The position numbers and the translations under genes were made by a program. Shown one piece after another: positions 30,243 to 32,334 of a DNA stretch of 32,489 nt. A model generated the notes under the pieces. The model saw only the letters and a program-made list of their open reading frames with translations, was not told the DNA's origin and ran no database searches. Origin of the DNA: Bacteroidota bacterium (lineage in GTDB: Bacteria > Bacteroidota > Ignavibacteria > Ignavibacteriales > Ignavibacteriaceae); NCBI GenBank assembly GCA_021824565.1, contig JAKAKL010000130.1, positions 1 through 32,489 of the forward strand, read 5' to 3'. Each line of letters starts with the position of its first letter. Positions within the stretch are counted from its first letter, which is position 1.

Positions 30243-30316
30243 GGGCTCGTAGCTCAGTTGGTTAGAGCAGCTGACTCATAATCAGCGGGTCGGAGGTTCA
30301 AGTCCTTCCGGGCCCA
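30243..30316 (+). tRNA. tRNA with CAT anticodon (elongator Met, or Ile2)
   Basis: The 74-nt cloverleaf has acceptor GGGCTCG/CGGGCCC (one G-T), D stem GCTC/GAGC, anticodon stem GCTGA/TCAGC with loop CTCATAA, T stem GGAGG/CCTTC, discriminator A, no encoded CCA. The G1-C72 pair and a stem without three G-C pairs rule out the initiator. Elongator Met and lysidine-modified Ile2 share this anticodon and cannot be separated by eye; the arms look more like elongator Met. TATTAT at 30217-30222 may be its -10 box. It marks the boundary to an accessory-looking region. Confidence 0.93.
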
Positions 30317-30320
30317 CTTC

Positions 30321-31152: not shown

Positions 31153-31211
31153 GTGAACCTCGATTTTTAGTTGTTTATAGTTTGGGCGATTTGCCCGCAA
31201 TAAAAAAAACA

Positions 31212-31392
31212 CGCAGCAAAACAACTTAGTCGATGTTTTAACCGGCGGGGGGCGGGAAAGTAAAGGCGAAAAAAAACGCCGGATACCAAAATTCAGCGAA
31301 ACGGAGTGGAGCGCATAAGAACAACATGGTATTTTGTTTTTGCCTTTACGCCGCACACCAACGATTTATTTTTACTTAGTTGTTTTGATGCG
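31212..31392. repeat. 181-bp imperfect inverted-repeat element
   Basis: The outer 19-nt arms at 31212-31230 and 31374-31392 (ACTTAGTTGTTTTGATGCG on the right) are inverse complements with two mismatches. Inner 13-nt arms GTAAAGGCGAAAA (31260-31272) and TTTTTGCCTTTAC (31337-31349) pair with one G-T, and innermost ATACCA (31283-31288) pairs with TGGTAT (31327-31332). The nested arrangement forms a long hairpin, typical of a MITE-like element or a folded RNA. No transposase is present and no target duplication was recognised. Confidence 0.65.
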
Positions 31393-31545
31393 TTTCATTC
31401 CTATTCATTGTTCCCTTTTGTTTTAAGCATCTTGCTGCTTGTCTGGCCGGAAGCGGCAGATATAAGTGGCAAGTTGCGTTGTCTTCTGCTCTACGAAAAA
31501 GCATTTTGTGATTGATTAGAGCGTAACGAACACAAGAGTAATGAA

Positions 31546-31563
31546 GCTGTGGCTTTCAACAGC
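31546..31563. other. Hairpin in the purine-rich array
   Basis: GCTGT (31546-31550) and ACAGC (31559-31563) pair around an 8-nt loop. It is flanked on the left by GCGTAACGAAC and on the right by AAAGCGAAATGAAAG, the same purine-rich words that follow the other hairpins of this stretch. Confidence 0.4.
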
Positions 31564-31801
31564 GTAGTATAACTGAAGAGAGTAAAGCGAAATGAAAGAG
31601 CAAATTGTTTAGGAGTCTGAACCTTTCAAAGTGCGGCGCATGTTTTTGATTCTGGCGGATTTTTTGTTAAGGGAATGAAGCAAGGAAAAAAGAAGCAATT
31701 TATTTTTCTATCTTCTTTTTTATTTGCGGAAAGTAGAAGCAAAAAATGTGACAGTTAAAAACCGTGCCGCACATAAGATTTTCTAATTATCTATAAATAG
31801 T

Positions 31802-32047
31802 AGTTATGGAATGTCAGAGACATAGCTACATTCTAGGGACGCAAATACTAAGATTATATGAGAGCCTTGCTGACTGAGCGGAATGGTTGACGGCGGCAGC
31901 CGTCAAGAAAATGGAGCGAAGGAAGCAGGGCGGAGGCAATGACAAGACTGCCAATACAAAGTGATGTACTCCGGCAGTTATGGAGAGTCAACGACATAGC
32001 TGCACTAAAGGACGCAAGTGTAAGATATGTAAGAGCCTTATTGAGTG
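31802..32047 (+). repeat. Two tandem copies of a stem-forming motif (period 174 nt), candidate structured RNA
   Basis: Copy A (31802-31875) and copy B (31976-32047) both start AGTTATGGA and share GACATAGCT, GGACGCAA, TAAGAT and AGAGCCTT in the same order. Each folds into three nested stems. Stem I: GTCAG (31813-31817)/CTGAC (31870-31874) in A, TCAA/TTGA in B. Stem II: CATA/TATG in A, ACATA (31994-31998)/TATGT (32026-32030) in B. Stem III: ATT/AAT in A, CACT (32003-32006)/AGTG (32017-32020) in B, with GGACGCA in the loop. Paired positions change together between copies (G-C to A-T in stem I; T-A to C-G in stem III). The strand is assigned by the loop and is tentative. Confidence 0.55.
31887..31906. 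other. Perfect 8-bp hairpin after tandem copy A
   Basis: TTGACGGC and GCCGTCAA pair around GGCA, followed by AAGAAAATGGAGCGAAGG. A near copy lies at 32212-32230 (TTAACGGC, GAA, GCCGTCAA), also followed by a GCGAAG word and preceded by a CTGAGC word in both cases. Confidence 0.55.
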
Positions 32048-32075
32048 AGAGTAGTGTTATGAAGTGAAGCATAGT

Positions 32076-32091
32076 TTTTACGATAGTAAAA
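32076..32091. other. 6-bp hairpin after tandem copy B
   Basis: TTTTAC and GTAAAA pair around GATA, in the position equivalent to the GGCA hairpin after copy A and followed by GCGTAACGAAATAAAGCGGA. The stem sequence differs completely from copy A while pairing is kept. Confidence 0.45.
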
Positions 32092-32211
32092 GCTTGCGTA
32101 ACGAAATAAAGCGGAACGAACGAAAATATGGCGGAGGTTTGAAAGAATATCAAATGCTTAGTACTGAATGAAAATATATTGCGTTTAAGGGTTTTGCACT
32201 GAGCATAGTAT

Positions 32212-32230
32212 TTAACGGCGAAGCCGTCAA
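32212..32230. other. Hairpin copy before the terminal terminator
   Basis: TTAACGGC and GCCGTCAA pair with one A-C mismatch around GAA, followed by ATAAACGAAGCGAAG. It is a diverged copy of the hairpin at 31887-31906. Confidence 0.45.
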
Positions 32231-32281
32231 ATAAACGAAGCGAAGTTAAGATATGTTTTAAGTTAACCGGAGTGGACAATA

Positions 32282-32311
32282 AAAAAGCTTCCTCGAAAGA
32301 GGAAGCTTTTT
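32282..32311. terminator. Perfect 13-bp bidirectional terminator
   Basis: AAAAAGCTTCCTC and GAGGAAGCTTTTT pair perfectly around a GAAA tetraloop. On the minus strand it lies 23 nt after the stop of the partial gene and runs into six T; on the plus strand it ends in five T and would end any transcript from the repeat-rich stretch. Confidence 0.92.
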
Positions 32312-32334
32312 GGAAGGAGGAAATAATGCAACAA

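Follow-up and report, generated by a model that had tools for sequence, protein, structure and literature searches.

The window, that is, the whole stretch of DNA that was analyzed, comprises the complete contig C22, 32489 bp in length, from a genome of 4.59 Mb, and the features described here lie near its right end (Table 1). An intact tRNA-Met(cat) gene is followed by three short genes on the minus strand, a tandem array within a predicted RNA of ~1.1 kb, a terminator hairpin, and a convergent gene for a 228-aa protein. The core motifs of the array, at 31802-31837 and 31976-32011, are 174 nt apart and have 78% identity across 36 nt. The four words that an earlier note on this DNA had listed as common to the pair (GACATAGCT, GGACGCAA, TAAGAT, and AGAGCCTT) were each found in both copies. 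A diverged paralogue of this entire end region, again with two motif copies, is found on a second contig of the genome, C23 (6350 bp).

The array, the convergent 228-aa gene, and the genes for the SymE-like and zinc-finger-like proteins constitute a conserved end module. The homologue of the 59-aa protein in locus L036 matched the Pfam family SymE_toxin (PF08845) with an E-value of 1.3e-6 and 28.8 bits, against a cut-off of 29, and tblastn matches to the SymE-like protein were obtained in 7 of 10 loci. The L036 homologue of the 65-aa protein gave a match to zf-C2HC_2 with 16.1 bits (E = 0.0093, cut-off 27). The 55-aa ORF had no family match, and its L036 homologue had no Pfam match. The 228-aa protein belongs to a multi-copy family that is present in 53 of the 164 genomes of the order; the family is thus wider than the array, which occurs in 17 of them. 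The Pfam matches among 16 members, YscW in 6 (best E = 0.0019), DUF6266 in 1 (E = 0.051), and VirD5 in 1 (E = 0.0039), were not convincing, and a literature search on DUF6266 found no paper. The predicted structure of the 228-aa protein has a mean pLDDT of 56.2. Its better C-terminal half looks FN3/Ig-like (best E = 2.7e-3), and the structure search gave no match at 0.001. Searches with this protein against phage records and against plasmid records gave no match in either.

Table 1. Coordinates of the features at the end of the window and of the repeat-bounded elements
Feature	Position	Strand	Basis or remark
Intact tRNA-Met(cat)	30243-30317	+	ARAGORN, Rfam
SymE-like protein, 59 aa	30568-30747	-	L036 homologue: Pfam SymE_toxin
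Zinc-finger-like protein, 65 aa	30744-30941	-	L036 homologue: weak zf-C2HC_2
Conserved small ORF, 55 aa	30985-31152	-	tblastn conservation
Predicted whole RNA, both ends inferred	31183-32311	+	fold z -6.8; kept between C22 and C23
GGGC...GCCC short hairpin, just upstream of block A	31184-31196	+	pairs broken in 2/8 aligned rows
Block A, 5' structured domain; inverted-repeat arms 31199-31230/31374-31405	31199-31405	+	predicted pairs
~97-nt hairpin-like repeat	31654-31750	.	absent at matching place in C23 paralogue
Module copy 1	31796-31936	+	152.4 bits, covariance model
Copy 1 P1 5' strand	31800-31808	+	consensus fold, tree-aware test
Copy 1 P1 3' strand	31821-31829	+	consensus fold, tree-aware test
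Copy 1 P3 5' strand GCCTTGCT	31864-31871	+	consensus fold, tree-aware test
Copy 1 P3 3' strand AGCAGGGC	31924-31931	+	consensus fold, tree-aware test
Module copy 2, longer apical part	31970-32137	+	115.3 bits
Copy 2 P1 5' strand	31974-31982	+	consensus fold
Copy 2 P1 3' strand	31995-32003	+	consensus fold
Copy 2 P3 5' strand GCCTTATT	32035-32042	+	consensus fold
Copy 2 P3 3' strand AATATGGC	32125-32132	+	consensus fold
Weak partial third module, apical part only	32192-32251	+	19.2 bits, E 0.015
Two-sided terminator hairpin	32282-32311	.	hairpin + T counts
Convergent 228-aa gene, 3' end, cut by contig end	32335-32489	-	full paralogue L019:2815-3501
Element G001:C16	5568-55596		44 bp end repeats; 3' end of tRNA-Lys
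Element G090	362864-399126		47 bp end repeats; tRNA-Asp
Element G037	3264187-3288073		53 bp end repeats; tRNA-Asp
Element G064:C41	51989-87098		18 bp end repeats; tRNA derivation not established

Module architecture and covariation

The conserved unit had been delimited as 31802-32047, which is too small; the covariance model extends each motif copy to a module of its own. The module is ~140-180 nt long and consists of stem P1, a conserved GACGC...AAGA core, and the long-range stem P3. In the RNAalifold consensus of 18 MAFFT-aligned copies, P1 (formed around a variable loop) and P3 are the main stems. P3 is formed by pairing of GCCUUGCU or GCCUUAUU with AGCAGGGC, AAUAUGGC, and similar sequences, and it is capped by two 2-bp stacks that lie between purine internal loops. 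Some copies have palindromic insertions, located in the P1 loop or close to the apex, which leave the stems undisturbed. The alignment was drawn from 22 collected copies, without L031 and the third copies of L033, L039, and L040; in the third copies of L033 and L039, the P3 3' side was not found.

Three nested covarying stems had been claimed from the two copies in the window. P1 (T-A to C-G between the copies) and the long-range P3 (G-C to A-T) stood up to the comparison, but the inner stem CATT/AATG, with its supposedly repaired C-A mismatch, did not. Among the 18 copies, 79.6% of its cells were paired, and both sides changed at 1 of its 3 pairs. Since the inner stem is weak across these copies, the repair of the mismatch does not generalize.

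Both-sided change was found at 10 of the 19 consensus pairs in the 18-copy alignment. The number of compensatory cells, with the weak inner stem included, was 49, compared with 17.2 +/- 4.2 after shuffling (0/500 as high), and a sliding control was 28.9-50.9% paired as opposed to 95.1% for the true register. In an alignment of 42 matches that was fitted to the model, 124 compensatory cells were counted, compared with 42.8 +/- 6.6 after shuffling. A tree-aware test, which is a home-made imitation of R-scape, was passed at E < 0.05 by 4 of 19 pairs with 18 rows; with 40 rows (alignment A7, from which two of 42 rows were removed as partial), 7 of 19 pairs passed and 12 did not. The P1 pairs took ranks 1 and 2 among 9453 column pairs. 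The all-pairs form of the test was passed by 4 of 9180 pairs, namely, two P1 pairs, one P1-loop pair, and one out-of-register neighbor that lies outside the structure. Eight of the 15 P1/P3 pairs are invariant in the 18-row alignment. Two of the alignments, A5 and A7, were made by fitting to the model and are biased toward it; A3 was made without such fitting, although its structure was taken from the same sequences. When folded singly, the copies showed no excess stability over shuffles (z -0.63 and -0.50). Homologues with covariation, the check proposed in the earlier note, were found by the covariance model, the compensatory counts, and the tree-aware test. On the strength of these sequence comparisons, it is very probable that the structured-RNA family is real.

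The consensus fold agrees with the plus strand, as first proposed for the RNA; the consensus energy is -15.2 kcal/mol on this strand and -6.8 kcal/mol on the reverse complement. The model pairs include 35 G-U cells versus 9 A-C cells, an excess that is supportive, not decisive, because the structure was derived on the plus strand, which favors G-U. One position of P1 is U.G in 24, G.G in 14, and A.G in 1 of 39 lettered rows, and is never Watson-Crick. The sense strand of the array has no stop-free frame of at least 50 codons in any of 10 loci, and no sense ORF of at least 80 aa lies between the array and the window end. All 30 stop-free frames of at least 50 codons in the 10 array loci are antisense, many of them alike, at least in part, between loci, and the window itself has an antisense ORF of 141 aa. 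These frames would be explained if the array coded for a protein on the antisense strand. Such a protein is nevertheless very unlikely, as the stretches common to loci are mostly short and stand in differing frames and lengths, and the single-base gaps within the module alignment disfavor a kept reading frame. The purine-rich sense strand would by itself lower the number of antisense stops. The reading of the motif as selected RNA structure, not protein coding, is supported by the covariation across homologues and by the lack of long open frames on the sense strand in the 10 loci.

Distribution, 5' blocks, and terminator

The covariance model R2 detected the family in 17 of the 164 genomes of the order (15 of the 109 good ones), representing 9 of 68 genera and two families. 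This distribution, together with the two further copies on C23, indicates that the recurrence of the motif is not due to chance. From the 45 matches listed, two partial ones were excluded, and the 43 full matches were grouped into 28 arrays with one copy (16), two copies (9), or three copies (3). In 24 of the 28 arrays, the 228-aa gene converges on the array from its 3' side, at a distance of no more than 210 nt in 23 of these; two of the remaining four arrays are at contig ends, and the other two are weak copies. When the 228-aa protein was used as the query, 11 loci were found in public MAGs. In L039 (6860-9150), the array and the 228-aa gene are separated by a stretch of ~2.4 kb, which is probably an inserted gene.

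The region 31183-32311 has a predicted folding energy of -336.5 kcal/mol (z -6.79 on the plus strand, 0/40 dinucleotide shuffles as low). The minus strand of the same region gave z -6.87 (0/40 as low), and two coding control regions gave z +0.35 and -0.51. The P3 that covariation indicates for copy 1 reappears in the predicted fold of the whole region. We consider it likely that one long transcript spans the region, and if this is the case, the RNA is modular. Its 5' part differs among loci. Block A is carried by the window and its closest relatives, and other loci have the unrelated block B instead. Block A has 54 predicted pairs, 8 of which show both-sided change among 8 sequences, and its covariation term is unfavorable (+1.44 kcal/mol). 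Block B, which has an outer stem of 14 bp plus an inner one, lies upstream of the array in many loci; in 16 sequences, both sides changed at 12 of 30 pairs, and 4 of 30 passed the tree-aware test. These sequences represent 16 of 19 loci, the others being L081 and L086, in which no block B was seen, and L039, in which the 5' part is missing. As judged by eye, a hairpin resembling GGGC...GCCC precedes block B in many loci.

By blastn over 10 loci, block B was found in six and neither block in L081, L086, L088, and L089. The exact block-B pattern matched 10 of 391 genomes in a class-wide search, all within the order of the window (reversed control, 0); the genome of the window has 0 matches because it carries block A. 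In six loci, five from genus g37 and one from g35 (L124, L125, L127, L128, L132, and L134), block B is kept and the array is replaced by another conserved segment, AAGCAATTTATGAGTTTGG...GTGTGAGCAAGAGACAAACG; the covariance model gave no match in them at E up to 1. Given the four loci of 10 with neither block and the six loci with another segment in place of the array, the "one RNA" may be a mosaic. Block-A-like cores were also observed at 10000-11760 of L047 and 340-520 of L050, within long purine-rich non-coding stretches of the GCGGAACGAAGTGGAGCG type. No convincing array was found in these stretches (best 12.4 bits), which are perhaps further RNAs of the same style.

The ~97-nt repeat of the window looks like a small mobile palindrome. 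Relatives of this repeat lie beyond the 228-aa gene elsewhere (L031 870-967 and L019 824-920). Its absence at the corresponding place in C23, the palindromes inserted in some loops, and the mutual replacement of blocks A and B are all features that would fit a mosaic in which small palindromic repeats or MITEs have gathered beside tRNA-integrated islands without a selected function. However, order and orientation are constant in 24 of 28 arrays across nine genera, and the insertions lie in loops while the stems covary, which makes such a mosaic quite improbable.

The array had been described as ending at a strong plus-strand terminator. A hairpin is present at that place, but it is two-sided and its T-tract favors the minus strand. 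The T count was higher on that strand, where the hairpin serves the convergent gene, at 19 of the 21 loci compared; in this count, the hairpin picked in L104, and perhaps those in L116 and L118, may not be the terminator. The position of the hairpin is kept across loci while its sequence changes. This arrangement bears on the question of whether the array is a cis-acting riboswitch or leader that belongs to a gene downstream. A riboswitch would be in keeping with covarying stems and conserved loops, and tandem arrangement occurs in riboswitches as well. A cis-acting leader is, however, most unlikely because no sense gene follows the array, only the terminator hairpin and the convergent gene; a match to Rfam at cut-off was also not obtained.

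tRNA-integrating elements

Four elements of a 24-50 kb family are bounded by repeats at both ends, and three of these repeats were shown to be tRNA-derived. In 4/4 elements, the far end has a match to the G001 integrase and a second integrase match lies inside, and the RNA module occupies the opposite end, on the tRNA side. Two phage integrases and a primase-polymerase of G001 were confirmed by Pfam. The defense cargo includes a type III restriction-modification system in G037, a ThsB-like TIR protein and SIR2 in G090, and AbiE in G001. Two further G001 proteins were noted, one of them lysis-like (GH108/peptidoglycan-binding) and the other with domain matches to coupling proteins (TrwB/T4SS). 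No capsid or terminase was found among the 18 Pfam-scanned proteins, out of many more, from these elements and a neighboring one. Phage satellites and tycheposons are tRNA-integrated islands with a tyrosine recombinase, a primase, and variable cargo; the likeness holds at the level of the element only, and membership is not claimed.

Among 26 array loci, 17 had an intact tRNA within the flanking sequence retrieved, and six kinds were represented (Asp 6, Met 4, Thr 3, Gln 2, Lys 1, and Val 1); same or near-identical contigs, e.g., L037, L038, L083, L092, and L100, were excluded from this search. In the window, the tRNA-Met(cat) gene is likely to be the attachment site at the boundary between chromosome and element, the far end of the element being outside the contig. 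At G001:C16 1-5567, the right-end module of a second element was observed directly beside the complete element at the tRNA-Lys gene, so that the elements seem to sit in tandem. An explanation by a mobile family had been feared as one that would undo the RNA reading. The link to a mobile family does exist, but the motif forms a structured, conserved part of the element and is not a coding or repeat artifact. At the level of comparative sequence analysis, the module family, the covariation of P1 and P3, the one to three tandem copies, the fixed gene order, the repeat-bounded residence, and the structured 5' block in many loci are established.

The position near the attachment site could also suggest a function at the level of DNA, either as an origin of replication or transfer or as a site of recombination or packaging, with the inverted repeats acting as DNA hairpins. 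Blocks A and B contain large inverted repeats, one element encodes a primase-polymerase, and both strands fold well, all of which is in accordance with this possibility. The excess of G-U over A-C, the conserved U.G/G.G position, and the better consensus fold of the plus strand point to RNA instead, and purine internal loops between 2-bp stacks would suit RNA better. We therefore regard a DNA-level element as unlikely. The occurrence of related elements at six kinds of tRNA gene raises another possibility, in which the RNA guides the integrase to different tRNA genes. This candidate was not supported by a comparison limited to exact matches and is very improbable. In 17 loci, the longest run shared exactly by the RNA and its own tRNA did not exceed that shared with other tRNAs, the means being 6.2 versus 6.5 for sense and 5.0 versus 6.7 for antisense.

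Known RNAs and proposed role

In the Rfam scan that the earlier note had recommended, no Rfam 15 family reached its gathering score on the array, and the window gave three tRNAs only. Relaxed E-values gave nine sub-cut-off matches in the end region, none of them on module copy 1 or 2. The best was BTnc231 at 32187-32312, the terminator end (28.7 bits, cut-off 80.4, E = 0.0017); Phe_leader and others also matched at the terminator end, and MIR2118 and MIR6288 matched in or just after block A. L019 had two sub-cut-off matches, both outside the array (E up to 1), and eight other loci gave tRNAs only at E up to 0.5.

By analogy, GOLLD and ROOL are the closest in kind. GOLLD is described as a large structured RNA that is carried by phages and prophages, often close to tRNA genes, and has a conserved 3' region, a less conserved 5' region, and an unknown function; ROOL is described as a large RNA without a known function that occurs near tRNA islands in prophages and phages (PMC12286853). 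Compared with these descriptions, the predicted RNA resembles GOLLD as a large RNA of mobile elements near tRNA genes with a variable 5' part, and differs from it in having tandem modules; it resembles ROOL as a large RNA near tRNA genes in mobile elements, and its architecture is different. The GOLLD model (RF02032, 416 positions) was unmatched by the window end (E up to 10), L019 (E up to 1), and eight loci (E up to 0.5), and its search of the whole genome gave two sub-cut-off matches (13.9 and 13.8 bits; cut-off 150), neither on C22 nor on C23. The ROOL model (RF03087, 574 positions) had no match in the window end, L019, or eight other loci at the same E-value limits; the whole-genome search also gave none, a result that is weak alone as the control genomes gave no match either. 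Because neither model matches, the RNA is not filed as a member of GOLLD or ROOL. Among the features of a "large ornate mobile-element RNA," covariation, fold, and residence near tRNA were observed, and a single transcript is predicted. Abundant ORF-less non-coding transcripts are described for the phage ICP1 and its PLE satellites (PMC7567579). They share with the predicted RNA the residence in mobile elements and the lack of ORFs, and differ in their hosts, the comparison being one of description, not sequence.

Type III toxin-antitoxin systems (ToxI and kin) likewise have structured RNA repeats arranged in tandem next to a gene for a protein, and a SymE-like gene belongs to the same end module as the array. 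The RNA might thus be an antitoxin or regulator that controls the SymE-like operon, or the 228-aa protein might be the toxin of a type III-like pair. Several observations make either arrangement improbable. In the window, the array lies clear of the SymE-like ORF, whereas the RNA of a SymE/SymR type I system would be antisense to the toxin mRNA. The 228-aa gene is convergent (24/28) and not downstream on the same strand after a terminator, as type III systems require. The modules of 140-180 nt far exceed the much shorter ToxI repeats, and PADLOC gave no match for the 228-aa or SymE-like proteins.

Here, we propose that the locus probably encodes a large modular non-coding RNA on the plus strand, which is conserved in tRNA-integrating elements and may serve as a trans-acting multivalent scaffold. 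About 31183-32311 would be read as a single plus-strand RNA here, and a shorter one elsewhere. As no sense gene follows the array, the RNA would act in trans. The tandem modules would be repeated docking sites, which would make the RNA a multivalent scaffold or particle. This scaffold or particle would serve the element in its maintenance, in its transfer, or in the titration of a host or phage factor, a role pictured like that of GOLLD and ROOL, large RNAs near phage tRNA genes. The scaffold mechanism as such is put forward only tentatively, as one of several possibilities. A bolder and rather speculative version would see a giant modular RNA of a new class, with exchangeable 5' blocks and tandem 3' modules, as the core scaffold, cage, or packaging part of undescribed defense-carrying tRNA-integrating satellites, acting with the 228-aa protein.

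Large RNAs of the GOLLD/ROOL type, whose function is not known, rank with the most elaborate RNAs in nature. A further modular kind, unmatched by their models and tied to islands with clear ends and a fixed neighbor gene, would provide a comparative handle on function; genomes can be compared for copy number, domain swaps, and partner genes. The RNA also marks one end of an integrative element family. No description of this RNA was found in the literature searched, and novelty is claimed within that search only. The RNA of L104 against phage records and the window RNA against plasmid records gave no match. In IMG/VR, a single-protein query found no relative, and the profile and the block-B pattern each matched the same single contig, IMGVR_UViG_2778261489_000003, which also carries a module (70.8 bits).
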